The notes under the pieces are model-generated. The model saw only the letters and a list, made by a program, of their open reading frames with translations, did no database searches and had not been told where the DNA came from. A DNA stretch of 51,003 nt from assembly GCA_017465845.1 (NCBI GenBank), contig JAFTVH010000045.1:1-51003 (forward strand), in the 5' to 3' direction. This document shows positions 38,096 to 46,160 of this stretch, piece after piece. Numbering within the stretch: the first letter of the stretch is position 1; every line of letters starts with the position of its first letter. The position numbers and the translations under genes were made by a program. Source of the stretch: Lachnospiraceae bacterium. Its GTDB lineage: Bacteria > Bacillota > Clostridia > Lachnospirales > Lachnospiraceae.

Positions 38096-38899
38096 TTATG
38101 GCAAAAAGCAAAGGTCAGAAATATAATTGGCCTCATGGCTAATCTGAAACATACCCACCAACTCATGCTTTTCGTCCAACTCAATCATAGGATAGCCCAT
38201 TTTTTCGCAACCATGACCGAGCCAATTCGCTATCAAAATATGACCGTTCGGTGCAATCTTAAAATTCAGTGCCCAACAAAGACCTGCCTGCGGAATATCA
38301 GATGCACTCACACGCCAAAGTTCTTTTCCTTTACGGTCAATTTCACAAATGGCAGTGTGCTGCGTGTAGATAATGTTACCATTTTCCAGTTCTTCCATGC
38401 CGAAGGTATCAGGTCCGGTTGGAATCTCCTCCAAAAGCTCTCCTTCAAAAGAAAACTTGCGAATCATACAATCTCCCGGCTGAACCACCCAGATATTTCC
38501 ATCCCGGGCGATCTGTACGCCCCGCATAACTTCATGGAGATTCTTCCCGTTGTAAAGGATAGGAAACCGTTTTACAACATTACAGTCCGCATCAAGGACA
38601 GTAATCAGTTTGCCGGTCAGTTCACCCACCAGAAATCCTTTCTCTCCATTTTGAATCGGCCAGACACCGAATACTTCATTTTTCGTTTTATATCGTTTCA
38701 AAACCTCACCGTTTTCATTGCAGACCACAAGACCGCTATATGAATTATCCCCAATACTGGAATAACAGTAGGTATCTTTTCCCAGTGCGTAAATATCAAA
38801 AGCGCACCCAAAAGTACTTATTTTTTTTACATTGCCGTCACGAACAATAAAAATGGCATGACCGGAATCTGCAATAACAGCATCATATGGAAAGTTCAT
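38096..38899 (-). CDS. Intracellular beta-propeller-like protein of the GRE operon
   Basis: 267 residues with a GGAGGAAAAG site. Repeated beta-blade wording (NGEVLKRYKTKNEVFGVWPIQNGEKGFLVGE, ARDGNIWVVQPGDCMIRKFSFEGELLEEIPTG, NGNIIYTQHTAICEIDRKGKELW) suggests five or six blades like SMP-30/NHL or PQQ-like propellers. There is no signal peptide. As the last gene of the GRE operon it may be a lactonase-like enzyme or sensor for the pathway; neither is proven. Confidence 0.55.
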   Translation of the reverse strand: MNFPYDAVIADSGHAIFIVRDGNVKKISTFGCAFDIYALGKDTYCYSSIGDNSYSGLVVCNENGEVLKRYKTKNEVFGVWPIQNGEKGFLVGELTGKLITVLDADCNVVKRFPILYNGKNLHEVMRGVQIARDGNIWVVQPGDCMIRKFSFEGELLEEIPTGPDTFGMEELENGNIIYTQHTAICEIDRKGKELWRVSASDIPQAGLCWALNFKIAPNGHILIANWLGHGCEKMGYPMIELDEKHELVGMFQISHEANYISDLCFLP

Positions 38900-40191: not shown

Positions 40192-41079
40192 TTATTTCAC
40201 ATTAACATTGCATCTTTGCAGATAACTGCGAGCCCGCATCATTTGCTCCTCGTTAGGAATCCAATTATCGGTTCCGCAATCCGTTTTTCCAATTGCCAGA
40301 GTTTTAGAACCACCGTATACATGATACGGCAACAGTTCTACTTCTCTACAGCCTGAAATGCTGTGATACACCTCTGCGACAGCCCGATAGTGGTTCTCGT
40401 CCATATTCAAACCACTCACCATAATGCACCGCAGAATAATTTTTGCACCGTGTCTGTCTGCCTTCTGCAGAATTTCAAGTATTTTTTTATTGGAGACGCC
40501 GGTGTATTTCTTATGTCGGTCATCATCCGTATCCTTTAAATCCCACAGGAAAACATCCGTGTTTTCGACGAGCTTCGGGAGATAATCCGCATTAAAATAT
40601 CCGCAGGTCTCAATCGCCGTTCCAATTCCTTTTTCCCTGCAGGCTGAAAGCAGCGCCAGTGTCTCTTTCGGATGAAACATAGGCTCTCCGCCGGAAATAG
40701 TAATTCCTCCACTCCTGCCATAAAATGCACGATCCTTTTCCACGATAGCCATTACTTCCTCCAAGGGCATTTCATTTAATGCAAAGGAAAGCGCTTCTCT
40801 GCAGCAAACCTGTACACACTTCCCACACAAGCCGCATTTTTCTCTGTCATAACAACGTATTGGCTGCATTTTTTGCGCTCCATTGGGACAGACAGCCTCA
40901 CATGCTCCACAGTGAATACACTTTTTTTCATAAAACATAATCTGTTGGGCAGCACTTTGGGTCTCCGGGTTATGGCACCACTGACAACGAAGCGGGCATC
41001 CCTTTAAAAATACAGTAGTGCGCACACCCGGGCCGTCATGCATACAAAAACGTTGAATATTTGTTACTGGAATCAACAT
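40192..41079 (-). CDS. Glycyl radical enzyme activase (radical SAM)
   Basis: 295 residues from the ATG at 41079 with GTGAGGAATG. The radical SAM motif CPLRCQWCHNPE (C-x3-C-x2-C) is followed by a ferredoxin-like insert with two CxxCxxCxxxC sets (CIHCGACEAVCPNG and CGLCGKCVQVC), then GGITISGGEPMFHP. It uses SAM to place a glycyl radical on its partner. It lies directly downstream of the GRE gene, its obvious substrate. Confidence 0.95.
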   Translation of the reverse strand: MLIPVTNIQRFCMHDGPGVRTTVFLKGCPLRCQWCHNPETQSAAQQIMFYEKKCIHCGACEAVCPNGAQKMQPIRCYDREKCGLCGKCVQVCCREALSFALNEMPLEEVMAIVEKDRAFYGRSGGITISGGEPMFHPKETLALLSACREKGIGTAIETCGYFNADYLPKLVENTDVFLWDLKDTDDDRHKKYTGVSNKKILEILQKADRHGAKIILRCIMVSGLNMDENHYRAVAEVYHSISGCREVELLPYHVYGGSKTLAIGKTDCGTDNWIPNEEQMMRARSYLQRCNVNVK

Positions 41080-41156
41080 AACATTCCTCACTTTAACTGC
41101 ACTTTTGAATCATTCTATTACGACCAGCACATTTGCCTGCCCCTGAATCGTTATCT

Positions 41157-43289
41157 TCACTTCTCCGTTTGCTGTATAATCATATTCTGCCACTCTTCGT
41201 TCAATGTTACGAAGCGGGCATTCCAGCCTGAAACACGCACAGACAATGTCTGATAATCTTCCGGATGCTTTTGAGCTTCTTTTAAAGTTTCTGCCTCGAC
41301 CACATCAAGCTGCATAAAGAAACCTCCAAGTGCCGCAAAACCGCATATCAAAGCCATCAGTGCTTCCAGTCCATCCTCACCCTTTACACTGGATGGCAGT
41401 AACTTGACATCCAGCGCCGCTCCGGTTACCATTCTTTTCATATCTGCCTTGCAGTAAGAACGGATAATTGCGGTAGCTCCTTCTTTGTCCGTTCCCGGCG
41501 TCGGCGACATATTTCCCGCCAGTACTTCTCCTTTTTTTCGTCCATGGGGAGCTGCTATTCTTCCCGACAAGAAAGTTGACAGTTGCCTGCCAAAAGTACT
41601 GATTCCGGCAGGGAAGTTATATCCACAGCGGCCGTCCAGCTCACGACAAATTTCAGCAAAATCATCTATCAGGCGGACAGCTATCATATCTACTTCGTCA
41701 TTGTCATTTCCGTAGTACTGGTAATTGTTCAGCACATTCTGACGCAGAACTTCCTCGTTCTCCCAGTTGTTTCGAAGCACCTCCATAAACGCCTTCAGAG
41801 AAATCTTATGTTCATCAAACACCATTTTTTTAATGACATATAAACTGTTTACTGTATCCGGCAAGCCACCAATATGAGGAGATATGACATTGTAAATCGG
41901 ACCACCTTCCAGATAGGACAAGCCTTTCTCAATACATCCCTGTTCAAACAGAGAAACGATCGTACAAGGTATCTTTGCTTTCCATACCCAGTCTTTGCTC
42001 GGCAAACCGGTGCGTATGAATGCATTCTCCTTATCGCGAAAAATGATATCCACCCGCGCTTTTAAATCGGCAACATAATTTTTATAAAGGGACTCAAAAT
42101 CTGCGAAATCAATATCCGGACTATAATCCTTTAATGTATTGTGCTGTAAAATCTGCAGCGAATCAAAAGGGGAATAATTAAAGAAGGTCTTTCCCGGTAT
42201 CTGAACCTCCCAGCATCCGTCGTTGGCAAATTGACGAGCCTCCGTCAGCGGATAGCCATATTCCGTCAGTGCTTCCAGAATCAGATCCTCGTTGTACACC
42301 GCCAGAATACCTCCACCGTAGCGTATTACCTCTGCAACACGGCGTATAAGTTTTTCGTCTGTATTCGCATTTACACGAACCGTTGTCGGGAAATCGCTAA
42401 TCCCCAGTTCTTCCAGAATGTCTAAAACAAGATAAGTCACCTCATTTGTAATCTCCTGTCCATTCTCATCCACTCCTGCAAGAATAATATTCTGATAATG
42501 CTGTGCATCTCCACTTTCGCAATTTCCACCCCAGATCCATTCACAGCCCTTGATAAACAGGTGAGCAAGAATCTCCCGTGCTTCATCCAGTGTAATATTG
42601 CCTTCCTCAAGATCCCTCTTCAGATATGGCCCCAGCATAGCATCAATTCTGCCGATTCCGGGCCAGTTACCGCAGAGCCGTACAAAGGCAAAGGTAAACC
42701 ACAAACTTTGAACAGCCTCGTAAAAGTTGTTTGCCGGCTCCATAGGCATCCGCAGCAAATTTCTATAATTTGCCTCATATTCCGGAAGTCCTTTTAAGGC
42801 TTCCAGATAACGGCCATGCCAAATATCAAAGCAATCCAGACAATGTAAGCAGCTTTTCGCAAAAGCTTCCTTTTCCGTTCCCTGATATCTTTCCAGAGAA
42901 ATAAGCGCCTTTTCCCGGATGTGCTTGATTCCATATTTCAATACGGTAGGAAAATCGATGGTCAAATGGCTGACACTACTGCAAAGCGGCATATCCCGGT
43001 AGGTTGCCGGTATCACATGCTCTATTGCCTTCCCGAGTGTCGCTGCTCCGCTGATTTTTTCACTCTCGCATATACGGACAGGTGCTTTCGTCACGATTTC
43101 TTTTATCGCAACGTCATGTTGTTCAAGCTCTGTCATCTGCTCAAAATTTTCAACATGATCCAGGGTCACACAGGGTGTTTGTTTAGCATCAAGCCCATAT
43201 TTGTGATTTAAGGATTCGTAAGCAAATTTTCGTGTGCTCTCGCAAAGCCTTACGGGCCTTGGCGTTTTCGATGATGAATAAAATTCCAT
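41157..43289 (-). CDS. Glycyl radical enzyme, dehydratase-like, substrate unknown
   Basis: 710 residues from the ATG at 43289, chosen for GGAGGTGCC upstream. The active-site loop is NDGCWEVQIPG with Cys359 and Glu361, the Cys-x-Glu pattern of diol dehydratase-type GREs. The glycyl radical motif RVSGWNARF has Gly688 near the C-terminus. Both are intact, so the enzyme should be active. It is about 70-140 residues shorter than most GREs (about 780-850). Trp follows the Cys where glycerol and propanediol dehydratases have Val. Operon neighbours are an activase and an alcohol dehydrogenase. The precise substrate is open. Confidence 0.85.
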   Translation of the reverse strand: MEFYSSSKTPRPVRLCESTRKFAYESLNHKYGLDAKQTPCVTLDHVENFEQMTELEQHDVAIKEIVTKAPVRICESEKISGAATLGKAIEHVIPATYRDMPLCSSVSHLTIDFPTVLKYGIKHIREKALISLERYQGTEKEAFAKSCLHCLDCFDIWHGRYLEALKGLPEYEANYRNLLRMPMEPANNFYEAVQSLWFTFAFVRLCGNWPGIGRIDAMLGPYLKRDLEEGNITLDEAREILAHLFIKGCEWIWGGNCESGDAQHYQNIILAGVDENGQEITNEVTYLVLDILEELGISDFPTTVRVNANTDEKLIRRVAEVIRYGGGILAVYNEDLILEALTEYGYPLTEARQFANDGCWEVQIPGKTFFNYSPFDSLQILQHNTLKDYSPDIDFADFESLYKNYVADLKARVDIIFRDKENAFIRTGLPSKDWVWKAKIPCTIVSLFEQGCIEKGLSYLEGGPIYNVISPHIGGLPDTVNSLYVIKKMVFDEHKISLKAFMEVLRNNWENEEVLRQNVLNNYQYYGNDNDEVDMIAVRLIDDFAEICRELDGRCGYNFPAGISTFGRQLSTFLSGRIAAPHGRKKGEVLAGNMSPTPGTDKEGATAIIRSYCKADMKRMVTGAALDVKLLPSSVKGEDGLEALMALICGFAALGGFFMQLDVVEAETLKEAQKHPEDYQTLSVRVSGWNARFVTLNEEWQNMIIQQTEK

Positions 43290-43352
43290 ATTTAGGCACC
43301 TCCTATTTAAAATTCTCATCCGGAAACGATACGTCCATGACTACACATAAAC

Positions 43353-43371
43353 TCTGTTCCCAAGGAACAGA
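43353..43371. promoter_or_regulatory. Palindromic operator before the GRE gene
   Basis: A perfect inverted repeat, TCTGTTCC-CAA-GGAACAGA, lies about 7-25 nt downstream of the predicted GRE transcription start and 64 nt before the start codon. A near-identical element lies at the same place before the AraC gene. A repressor or attenuating hairpin role is inference. Confidence 0.7.
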
Positions 43372-43384
43372 TAAGCTTGTATTT

Positions 43385-43457
43385 AATATATCACAAGCAT
43401 TGCACGTGAGTGAGTGATAATACTATATAAATTTTGTACAATACTATGTTCAATAGA
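43385..43457 (-). promoter_or_regulatory. GRE promoter with repeats in AraC-activator position
   Basis: A -10 box TATATT (43385-43390) has no good -35 box 17 nt upstream, which is the mark of an activator-dependent promoter. Copies of CAATACT (written on the plus strand) start at 43439, with relatives at 43418 (TAATACT) and 43451 (CAATAGA). They lie about 40, 61 and 73 nt upstream of the predicted start, on or near one face of the helix. Confidence 0.6.
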
Positions 43458-43462
43458 AATTT

Positions 43463-43509
43463 GAAAAAGCCTCGCAACCTGCATAAATGCAGGAGTGTGA
43501 GGCTTTTTC
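43463..43509 (-). terminator. Terminator of the AraC gene
   Basis: GAAAAAGCCTC and GAGGCTTTTTC pair, with CCTGCA/TGCAGG inside. The minus strand gives a T-run after the stem. It lies between the AraC stop and the GRE promoter. The same hairpin recurs at 44500-44546. Confidence 0.85.
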
Positions 43510-43534
43510 AAAATGATAAGATATGTAATGTCGG

Positions 43535-44323
43535 CTATAACTTTTTTCGATATTCACGTGGAGAAACCCGAAAGGTTCTTCGAAACACTCTGCTAAAATA
43601 AGCCGGATCACGAAAACCGACAATCTCCGATATTTTCCCAACTGACTCATCCGTCTGCTTTAACATTTCGGAAGCAACCGAAATTCGATAGTGATTCAAA
43701 TAAGCAATTGGAGATGTCCCAAGGTTCTTCTTAAATATTTCATATAAATAAGCTTCTGATGCACATGCGACCTTTGAGAGCTGTGCAACCGATATATCCT
43801 CAGCATAATGATGCTGAATGTAATCAAGGGCACTCAAAAGAGTTTTATTTGCAACTATGTTTTTGGGTACAGCGATTTGCAACAGGAGTTTGACAATCTG
43901 ATAATATACACTCATCTCATCACACAAATTGTCACTCGAAAAAAGCCTGTCGAACAGATTGTTCATTGCATTTTTCATCTCGTTCGGAACAATGGTCGGA
44001 AAATCATACAGATAATCCAACCGATACATATTGTTAATGACAATATCCACAAAAATCCAGCGAAATCTCATCAAATTCGATTCAGGGTTAGTGAAATGAG
44101 TGATCTTTTGTACGACCTGAGATGGCGCAATAAAAAAGCCTCCATCGCCCGTCTTGTATCGTGGACAATCATCTAATTGTATATCATAGCTGCCTTCCTG
44201 CGACTGTACCACAGAAAGCCACGGAAGAGATTTAATATGTTGAACTCTATTGCATGTATTTGATTCACTCATATTCTTTTGGATATATCTGAAATCAATT
44301 CTTTTAATTTCCAAATCAATCAC
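43535..44323 (-). CDS. AraC-family regulator of the GRE operon
   Basis: 262 residues from a GTG at 44323 with AAGGAG six bases before; the longest frame starts at a TTG without a site. A sensor half (HIKSLPWLSVVQSQEGSYDIQLD, KTGDGGFFIAPSQVVQKITH) is followed by an AraC DNA-binding domain (ISVAQLSKVACASEAYLYEIFKKNLGTSPIAYLNHYRISVASEMLKQTDESVGKISEIVGFRDPAYFSRVFRRTFRVSPREYR). It is upstream of the GRE gene on the same strand with its own terminator. The same control region stands before both genes, so it likely activates both. Confidence 0.85.
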   Translation of the reverse strand: MIDLEIKRIDFRYIQKNMSESNTCNRVQHIKSLPWLSVVQSQEGSYDIQLDDCPRYKTGDGGFFIAPSQVVQKITHFTNPESNLMRFRWIFVDIVINNMYRLDYLYDFPTIVPNEMKNAMNNLFDRLFSSDNLCDEMSVYYQIVKLLLQIAVPKNIVANKTLLSALDYIQHHYAEDISVAQLSKVACASEAYLYEIFKKNLGTSPIAYLNHYRISVASEMLKQTDESVGKISEIVGFRDPAYFSRVFRRTFRVSPREYRKKL

Positions 44324-44386
44324 CTCAATCTCCTTATTATAACAGTACAACAGAGCAGACAACGAAGTATTCTCTGACGGAATAAT

Positions 44387-44405
44387 TCTGTTCCTGAGGG
44401 ACAGA
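44387..44405. promoter_or_regulatory. Palindromic operator before the AraC gene
   Basis: TCTGTTCC-TGA-GGGACAGA, 7 of 8 pairs, the near-identical counterpart of the operator at 43353-43371, again just downstream of the -10 box. Confidence 0.65.
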
Positions 44406-44418
44406 AACTCTCTTATTT

Positions 44419-44490
44419 ATTATATCACGAGAATCAACATATGTGATAGACAATACTATTCAATACTTGTACAATACTATGTTCAATACC
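44419..44490 (-). promoter_or_regulatory. AraC promoter with four phased CAATACT repeats
   Basis: A perfect -10 box TATAAT (44419-44424) lacks a good -35 box. Four CAATAC(T/C) copies begin at 44451, 44461, 44472 and 44484, spaced 10, 11 and 12 nt, one helical turn each. They sit about 39 to 78 nt upstream of the predicted start, the usual location of AraC-type activator half-sites. Confidence 0.7.
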
Positions 44491-44499
44491 ATAGGAATT

Positions 44500-44546
44500 C
44501 AAAAAGTCTCGCAACCTGCATAAATGCGGGATTGTGAGGCTTTGTT
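44500..44546 (-). terminator. Duplicated terminator of the lost second araC gene
   Basis: Matches 43463-43509 closely (CTCGCAACCTGCATAAATGC is shared); the outer stem has mismatches, so its strength is lower. Confidence 0.65.
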
Positions 44547-44572
44547 CAAAATAATAAGTTATGTAAAGTCGG

Positions 44573-44630
44573 CTAAAACGTTTTCCGATATTCACGTGGA
44601 GCAATCTGAAAAGTTCATCCAACCGATGCA
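44573..44630 (-). pseudogene. C-terminal remnant of a second AraC gene
   Basis: In the minus-strand frame ending at TAG 44573-44575 the sequence reads FQIAPREYRKTF, against FRVSPREYRKKL at the end of the intact AraC. Similarity fades upstream of about 44625. The remnant, terminator and promoter are the same modules as those around the intact gene, 1,033 bp apart. This is the tail of a tandem-duplicated araC that was lost. The rest of 44631-44815 shows no gene. Confidence 0.7.
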
Positions 44631-44815
44631 ATTCAGTCGGTAGGCTCAGGACTCCGAGAACCTATTATTAGGATAAAATATTTTATTAATAGTTACCTCC
44701 GTTTTCTATTTCATCTATACTCTGAGTATAATCTTGGCCTTTAAAGTCACAAGAAACAATTCATGAGGTTGGTACATACAAACGATAAGCTTATTTCTAA
44801 CGTGGCATAAAAATA

Positions 44816-44840
44816 ACAGCCAGACTTAAAATCTGGCTGT
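44816..44840 (-). terminator. Terminator of the DUF4143 ATPase gene
   Basis: ACAGCCAGA and TCTGGCTGT pair around CTTAAAA. It lies downstream of the ATPase gene. Confidence 0.7.
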
Positions 44841-44870
44841 CTTGCCAATTTAATTCATAATAATTGATGC

Positions 44871-46160
44871 TTAAATATTACTTACTGCATAAAGCGGAAT
44901 ATTGGTCAGCCAATCATCCTGTCGGTAGTCTGCCATAGAAATACGAACAGCATATGCCGGTTGGTATTTTTGGTGATATGCCTGCAAACTCTTAGCGCGT
45001 AAATTTGTTTCTGCCTTTACCTCTACAGGAACAACATTTTTTCCCTTCTGAATCATAAAATCCATCTCATACTTTCCAGTTTCAGAAATATGATAATATG
45101 GTGTATACTCCGTGCCGGCGATCAGCTCCTGCAAAGCATACTGCTCAGTAAGTGCTCCCTTAAATTCAGTAAATATTTCATTTCCTTCCAGAATTGTAGC
45201 TGCATCCAATTCACTCATTGCTCCCAATAATCCCACATCTAAAAGATACAGTTTGAAAGCGCTGAAATCCACATATGCTTTAAGCGGAACTGCAGGTTTA
45301 TTTACTCTATGAACCTTTGTAATCAATCCACAATCCTTTAACCACTCAATCGCAACCTCAAAGTCCTTCATTCTTGCCCCAGTCTTAATCTGACCGAAAA
45401 AAAACTTTTTATTTTCCTTTGCCAACTGAATCGGAATCGAATTCCAGATCATTCGGATGCGCGGCAGTTCACTACTACCAACATGCTTACCAAAGTCATC
45501 TTCATACTGAGACAACAGACTGTTTTGTAAATTTCGAACCTCTACATAGTCCTTATGCCTGCTGAAGTAACTTACAACTTCCGGCATGCCGCCGACATAG
45601 TAGTAGTTCTTCAGCCAATGGATATACTTATCTCGAAAATCTGAAATTAATCGGTAATCTCCATGTACCAAAAGATCAGCAAGTTGCTTTTCTCCCATAG
45701 CCTCCAAAAATTCCCGAAAGTTCATTGGGTGGAGGTCAATTTGGTCAACTTTTCCTACGGGATATGATACGCCATTATGAATTGCCACCCCCAACAGGGA
45801 ACCTGCAGCAATTACCGCATATTCCGGGGCATTTTCACAAAAATATTTTAACGACTCCAAAGCCCGGGGCGCATCCTGAATTTCGTCAAAAATAATCAGT
45901 GTATCTTCCGGTGTTACTTCTATCTTGGTTTCGATATTGATATTCATGATGATTCGATCTATGTCATAATCATCATCAAACACTTTCTTCATTCGCTGAT
46001 TATTATAAAACGTAACATAAGCAACTTTCTTGAAGTGAGTTTTTCCAAATTCTTTCATAAGCCATGTCTTGCCAACCTGTCTGGCTCCCTTCAGTATCAA
46101 TGGCTTTCTGTTTTCCTTGTTCATCCAATCGATCAATTGTTGCATAGCATACCTTCTCAA
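44871..46160 (-). CDS. ATP-binding protein, AAA_14 plus DUF4143
   Basis: 429 residues from a TTG at 46160 preceded by GGAGGTGATTC. Walker A LKGARQVGKTWL (about 23-34), Walker B TLIIFDEIQDAPRALESLKYF (about 87-107) and sensor motif VIAAGSLLGVA. The C-terminal DUF4143 domain ends with a nuclease-like core: YEMDFMIQKGKNVVPVEVKAE, the D-x-ExK pattern of restriction-type nucleases. These proteins are common in anaerobes, with no settled role; defence or DNA repair has been suggested. Confidence 0.85.
   Translation of the reverse strand: MRRYAMQQLIDWMNKENRKPLILKGARQVGKTWLMKEFGKTHFKKVAYVTFYNNQRMKKVFDDDYDIDRIIMNINIETKIEVTPEDTLIIFDEIQDAPRALESLKYFCENAPEYAVIAAGSLLGVAIHNGVSYPVGKVDQIDLHPMNFREFLEAMGEKQLADLLVHGDYRLISDFRDKYIHWLKNYYYVGGMPEVVSYFSRHKDYVEVRNLQNSLLSQYEDDFGKHVGSSELPRIRMIWNSIPIQLAKENKKFFFGQIKTGARMKDFEVAIEWLKDCGLITKVHRVNKPAVPLKAYVDFSAFKLYLLDVGLLGAMSELDAATILEGNEIFTEFKGALTEQYALQELIAGTEYTPYYHISETGKYEMDFMIQKGKNVVPVEVKAETNLRAKSLQAYHQKYQPAYAVRISMADYRQDDWLTNIPLYAVSNI

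Follow-up and report, generated by a model that had tools for sequence, protein, structure and literature searches.

The closest described counterparts of the locus analysed here are the AraC/XylS-type sites of XylS at Pm, MekR at PmekA and MtlR at PmtlE. In excerpts of PMC4514859, these catabolic-operon activators have two direct half-sites with a period of 21-22 bp, located immediately upstream of the -35 position and each made of two sub-boxes. The XylS and MekR motifs have a 21-bp period when counted from the motifs printed in that source, the two 15-bp blocks of MtlR extend from -72 to -58 and from -50 to -36, and a promoter turned constitutive once both of its half-sites had been made strong (PMC4514859, excerpts). 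For E. coli araC-araBAD, where the AraC-family regulator gene adjoins the operon that it controls, excerpts of PMC3163201 report that constitutive araC expression in place of negative autoregulation cut the input range tenfold.

In the window (the whole stretch of 51,003 nt of Lachnospiraceae DNA that was analysed), the gene of an AraC-family regulator (hereafter AraC) likewise adjoined an operon that it probably governs, here one encoding a glycyl radical enzyme (GRE). The candidate AraC sites shared with those of XylS, MekR and MtlR the direct half-sites 21 bp apart, their position just upstream of the -35 position and the presence of sub-boxes, but differed from them in box sequence (TAGTATTG), in their GRE target and in the occurrence of the promoter in two tandem copies, one of them placed to drive the regulator itself. 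Unlike in E. coli araC-araBAD, AraC and GRE were co-directional and had separate copies of the control module. We consider it likely that a tandem duplication produced two bipartite AraC-type modules through which ligand-bound AraC would activate its own gene as well as the GRE operon.

On the minus strand, the order was a relic AraC end (44622-44573), terminator copy T2 (44550-44498), module R2 (44489-44387), the AraC gene (to 43535), terminator T1 (43512-43460), module R1 (43456-43353) and GRE (from 43289), followed by the genes for its activase and an iron alcohol dehydrogenase. The GRE gene (41157..43289) encoded PFL-like and Gly_radical Pfam domains, the glycyl radical domain (PF01228) scoring 82 bits, and was accompanied by a gene for a dedicated radical SAM activase (40192..41091; NCBIfam TIGR02494, 310 bits for a cut-off of 174). 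The ATG at 43289-43287 is the more likely GRE start than the first ATG of the ORF at 43319, because the ortholog in Roseburia (see below) begins at the same MEFYSSSK and an AGGAGG lies upstream. As 12 of the 12 listed NCBIfam models of named subfamilies (HypD, CutC, sulfopropanediol dehydratases, PFL and others) scored below their cut-offs, no substrate was assigned to the enzyme. The GRE was short (about 710 amino acids) and retained a Cys-Ile-Glu motif like that of eliminase-type GREs. The final gene of the cluster (38096-38899) matched Pfam Mala_s_1 (E 4e-9), and its product is presumably a beta-propeller protein.

The AraC gene (43535..44362) probably starts at the GTG at 44323 or the TTG at 44314, instead of at 44362. 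Its product matched Pfam HTH_18 and HTH_AraC above the gathering score, with the C-terminal double helix-turn-helix (~100 residues) that characterizes AraC/XylS regulators covered by PF12833 (81 bits, cut-off 33.6) and by two stretches of PF00165, and its matches in the PDB were AraC (2k9s), MarA and SoxS. For the ~160 residues ahead of the helix-turn-helix, no Pfam family was listed at E values up to 1. Compared with the Roseburia ortholog, the gene had a dN of 0.13 and a dS of 1.07, and is therefore under purifying selection.

The preliminary description had aligned the GRE and AraC promoter regions with an offset of about 1,033 bp, and this alignment was confirmed and extended. Positions 43353-43584 aligned to 44387-44622 over 243 columns, with small gaps and an offset of 1033-1038, and the score (232) was far above those of 1000 dinucleotide shuffles (mean 21, maximum 33), which establishes the two copies directly. 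As the final 50 nt of the AraC coding sequence fell within the alignment (43535-43584 against 44573-44622), the copied unit comprised the AraC 3' end, the terminator and the promoter. The upstream counterpart (44573..44622) was the relic of a second AraC gene, reduced to its final 50 nt, stop codon included, so that a dead AraC tail sits upstream of the promoter of the live AraC gene. No further AraC homology was found upstream of this relic (score 20, shuffle mean 20.9), and the homology between the copies ended within 3 nt of the palindrome edge on the downstream side and 50 nt into AraC on the other. Block by block (240 of the 243 columns), the R1 and R2 sides were identical at 41/50 positions in the AraC tail, 25/28 between tail and terminator (1 gap column), 40/43 in the terminator, 5/7 between the terminator and the first box (6 gap columns), 36/39 in the boxes (2 gap columns), 13/20 in the spacer (3 gap columns), 13/14 in the -10 region, 3/8 in the start region and 16/19 in the palindrome. 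The relic DNA as a whole (terminator and AraC tail) was identical at 106 of 121 positions (88%).

A third full copy of the module was not found in the window genome (4.19 Mb, 85% complete), and a mobile or repeated intergenic element was rejected on that ground. Beyond self-matches, the genome search gave three short matches (21-29 nt, E 0.41-0.77); the region 44590-44880 also had only short matches elsewhere in this genome, and two weak Rfam matches were both far below the gathering score. In the simplest account, a block of ~1 kb that held the AraC gene, its terminator and the GRE promoter was duplicated in tandem in an ancestor. The distal AraC copy would later have been lost save for its last 50 nt, and the palindrome edge would be where the copied promoter was newly joined to the AraC leader; we infer this order of events from the layout.

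The repeats reported in the preliminary description (CAATACT, or AGTATTG on the gene strand) were recovered in both regions, at the positions given there. With the transcription start taken as 7 nt after the -10 box, the two conserved boxes of R1 and R2 lay at about -40 to -68 and the outermost box at -78, in line with the proposed range of about -40 to -78. The strongest spacing was 21 bp (two helical turns), and the AraC copy also had sub-repeats of 10-12 bp. In the GRE promoter, the promoter-proximal box TAGTATTA (43418..43425), kept in R2 and in Roseburia, was 21 bp from the distal box TAGTATTG (43439..43446). In the AraC promoter, TAGTATTG formed both the proximal (44451..44458) and the distal box (44472..44479), again 21 bp apart, and extra GTATTG boxes were present at 44461-44466 and 44484-44489. 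The GRE copy therefore had two good boxes and a weak outer one (CTATTG), and the AraC copy four GTATTG boxes. The extended -10 boxes were TGATATATT in the GRE promoter (43385..43393) and TGATATAAT in the AraC promoter (44419..44427).

In all three modules, i.e. R1, R2 and the single Roseburia module (L007), the TAGTATTR boxes were exactly 21 bp apart and the proximal box started 31-32 bp before the TGATATAWT extended -10, so that each has the form of a dimeric AraC/XylS site, with a pair of directly repeated half-sites spaced by about 21 bp ahead of the core promoter. From box end to -10 hexamer there were 26-27 nt in all three GRE-type promoters, leaving the hexamer uncovered. As stated in the preliminary description, neither window promoter had a good -35 box, the best candidate being the ATCACA of the AraC copy, which matched at 4 of 6 positions. 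Boxes that end at about -40, the missing -35 and the extended -10 together fit activation.

Of the 24 spacings covered (9-32), 21 gave the longest exact self-match in each module (8, 10 and 9 nt in R1, R2 and L007, respectively); at spacings 20-22, a match of that length occurred in 6, 1 and 2 of 1000 shuffles. With up to two mismatches, TAGTATTG-N13-TAGTATTG occurred at six places in the window and L007 genomes together, and with 0 or 1 mismatch solely in the three modules; at up to two mismatches, the reversed control pattern was commoner than the box pattern (G000, 6 + 9; G556, 4 + 1; two strands). The extended -10 alone was not above chance in the GRE module (7 of 8; 310/1000 shuffles) or in the L007 module (323/1000), and in R2 (17/1000) the best score was tied, by reading, between TGATATAAT and TGTTATAAT near the AraC start. 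It is the fixed distance of the extended -10 to the boxes, rather than the -10 match alone, that counts. Consensus promoter-like sites were likewise at chance, with 7 in the window stretch (shuffle mean 6.3) and 2 in L007 (1.6).

A single orthologous locus was found, L007, on a 4531-bp contig of the MAG of Roseburia sp. isolate RGIG8723 from deer colon. Its identity to the window was 87-88% for GRE (88% over 618 compared codons) and 77% for AraC. The L007 GRE was split by a frameshift (629-2539, 409-684), which may be a sequencing error or a real lesion. In E. coli, araC and araBAD are arranged divergently. L007 had the same kind of layout, GRE and the first part of the activase gene lying on one strand, AraC on the opposite one, and one common control region serving both, and this one intergenic region held one promoter copy, in which the boxes were 21 bp apart and the proximal box started 32 bp before TGCTAGAAT. 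The repeat, the 21-bp spacing and the distance to the -10 were thus kept in L007, which supports an AraC-dimer activator site and bears out the earlier proposal of AraC-type sites placed for activation. Compared without gaps, the box region was identical at 36/39 positions between R2 and L007, 32/39 between R1 and L007 and 31/39 between R1 and R2, and 30/39 were invariant in all three; the probability of the R2-L007 value was 2e-5 at the GRE 4-fold identity of 0.62, but only 0.017 at the overall AraC coding identity of 0.78. The L007 boxes also overlapped a TTGACA-17-TACAAT promoter facing AraC (11 of 12 was reached by 23/2000 shuffles), of which the window copies kept TACAAT, with TAGACA (R2) or GTGATA (R1) as the other hexamer. 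The extended -10 boxes, the AraC relic and this divergent layout are additions to the preliminary description.

At 4-fold sites, the identity between the window and L007 was 62% in GRE (n = 226) and 43% in AraC (n = 72). Compared with the 88% of the relic DNA, these values suggest that the duplication came after the split from L007, provided that gene conversion has not refreshed the copies; the comparison is approximate because the live AraC end and T1 are probably under selection.

The two regions had been described as sharing the same terminator, which held for the sequence but not for the fold. T1, the terminator of the AraC gene (43460..43512), folded on both strands (gene strand, -31.3 kcal/mol, z -8.1; opposite strand, -34.0) and was absent from the consensus terminator scan, which was limited to loops of 3-8. 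Judging from this fold, T1 would separate the two transcription units. T2, upstream of the AraC promoter (44498..44550), had lost most of this fold on the gene strand (-12.6 kcal/mol) but less on the other (-26.0); it is probably a relic, whose stronger remaining fold on the other strand may reflect only the kind of base change.

A palindrome was present in each region, as described earlier: P1 (TCTGTTCC-N3-GGAACAGA, 43353..43371) was perfect and would lie at ~+8 to +26 of the GRE transcript, while P2 (44387..44405) had one mismatch in its arms. An unlikely alternative to AraC-dependent activation sees in this palindrome either the main operator, at which a distinct repressor would bind, or a hairpin in the 5' part of the mRNA, with the upstream repeats secondary. 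The 8-bp arms of P1 were matched by only 11/1000 shuffles of the GRE leader (67/1000 with one mismatch allowed, compared with 33/1000 for P2), and both palindromes were called terminator-like in the consensus scan, P1 on the gene strand, P2 on the opposite one. In the AraC leader, however, the best arm without mismatches was 5 bp, at chance (544/1000), and the RNA hairpin was interrupted and weaker (-8.6 kcal/mol, 19/200 shuffles as good). The arms of P1 and P2 agreed at 15/16 positions and the palindrome was better kept than the neighbouring spacer and start region (16/28; Fisher P = 0.015), but its conservation was not above that of the adjoining dead DNA (106/121; P = 0.39). The GRE leader of L007 also contained a palindrome (3/1000 shuffles), but one that differed in sequence and position (about +47 to +66), and the L007 genome had no match to the window palindrome with fewer than 2 mismatches. 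Because the palindrome was not in L007 and no better kept than dead DNA, its proposed role as a second control layer was not supported and is unproven. With up to 2 mismatches, six matches to it were found in the window genome, the two discussed here with 0 and the other four with 2. A regulon-wide palindrome was rejected, three of these other matches (C119, C53 and C197) lying in ORFs of at least 180 amino acids that by eye were unrelated to the operon, and they were taken as chance; one was in a transport permease, one close to the end of an ORF of 180 amino acids and one in an exonuclease-like ORF. C119 also had a weak box-like match within its permease ORF. The L007 palindrome spanned 20 bp (2570-2589; TGAACTGTT-N2-AACAGTTCA) and had additional ACTGTTAC direct repeats next to it.

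Two further explanations concern the boxes themselves. AraC or another regulator could use them mainly to repress its own gene and GRE until a ligand releases it. In L007, the boxes overlap the -35 and the -10 of the AraC-facing promoter, which fits repression of that promoter; at the GRE-type promoters, by contrast, they stop short of the -10 hexamer and lie beside the missing -35, the place of an activator, and a mainly repressive role appears improbable. We also regard as improbable that the copies are alike only through recent duplication, the AraC-side module being passive and AraC driven otherwise, e.g. from TGTTATAAT, a perfect extended -10 at 44336-44344 directly ahead of the AraC ribosome site and start. 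The adjoining relics are themselves 88% identical, so that the likeness of the two modules says little by itself. Yet of the two modules it is the AraC-side one that has the better -10 (TATAAT), more boxes and the closer match to L007 (36 vs 32 of 39), whereas the fold of the adjacent T2 is gone; transcripts begun from 44336-44344 would moreover have hardly any leader ahead of the ribosome site.

Joint activation of GRE and AraC, as first proposed, remains the most likely reading, supported by site placement and by conservation in L007. The boxes are most likely sites of this AraC, although another regulator could own them. An AraC dimer with its ligand would occupy the two half-sites, which have a 21-bp spacing and reach to about -40, and recruit RNA polymerase to an extended -10 promoter without a good -35, and the GRE operon and the AraC gene would switch on together in a positive feedback loop. 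As strong half-sites made a promoter constitutive in the published case, it may be speculated that the four-box R2 might respond more readily than R1, whose proximal box is weaker. Because the genes are co-directional with separate modules, positive and not negative autoregulation is predicted in the window. In L007, the overlap of the boxes with the AraC-facing promoter suggests that the site autorepresses AraC, so the rearrangement in the window may have flipped the sign of the feedback. It is a tentative possibility, drawn from one relative in a comparison without an outgroup, that the L007 site activates GRE and represses AraC while the same protein and site activate AraC in the window.

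GRE was rare among the genomes searched. At E 1e-100, it was found in 1/397 family genomes and 1/138 genus genomes (the window's own in both), and in 1/62 genomes of the L007 genus (L007's own). At E 1e-90, it was present in 2/394 relatives of the L007 genome (its own and G887, 53%), and at E 1e-60 in 4/61 relatives (own and three of 30-31%); AraC at E 1e-40 was found in 1/395 (own). The GRE and AraC genome sets overlap, and the larger searches scored only some first-look candidates per genome. A scan of the genome collection for AraC with short peptide patterns, which detect close relatives only, gave six loci: the L007 ortholog and five others with 31-34% identity over 93-131 C-terminal residues. 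No relatives were found on plasmids (searched for AraC only) or on viral contigs (GRE and AraC). The G887 gene (L028 6299-8503) encoded a GRE 53% identical to that of the window, with an activase, in a different neighbourhood that by eye included a methyltransferase-like ORF upstream and sugar-transport-like ORFs nearby. No AraC-like ORF was seen by eye near it (14.5 kb, ORFs of at least 130 amino acids), and the exact 21-bp TAGTATT repeat was absent from this locus. Among the literature matches listed (titles and abstract openings), none dealt with this promoter or with such an AraC promoter duplication.

Overall, a regulator gene and a GRE operon stand behind near-identical promoters in the window, and a relative has one such switch, placed back to back. 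The module provides a defined candidate binding site for the uncharacterised AraC regulator of GRE, and thereby a handle for finding the inducer and the GRE substrate. The window and L007 form a compact natural case of a promoter duplication able to rewire autoregulation. If the sign change is true, it would convert a graded response into a self-reinforcing switch, and the two loci would represent a natural before-and-after pair.
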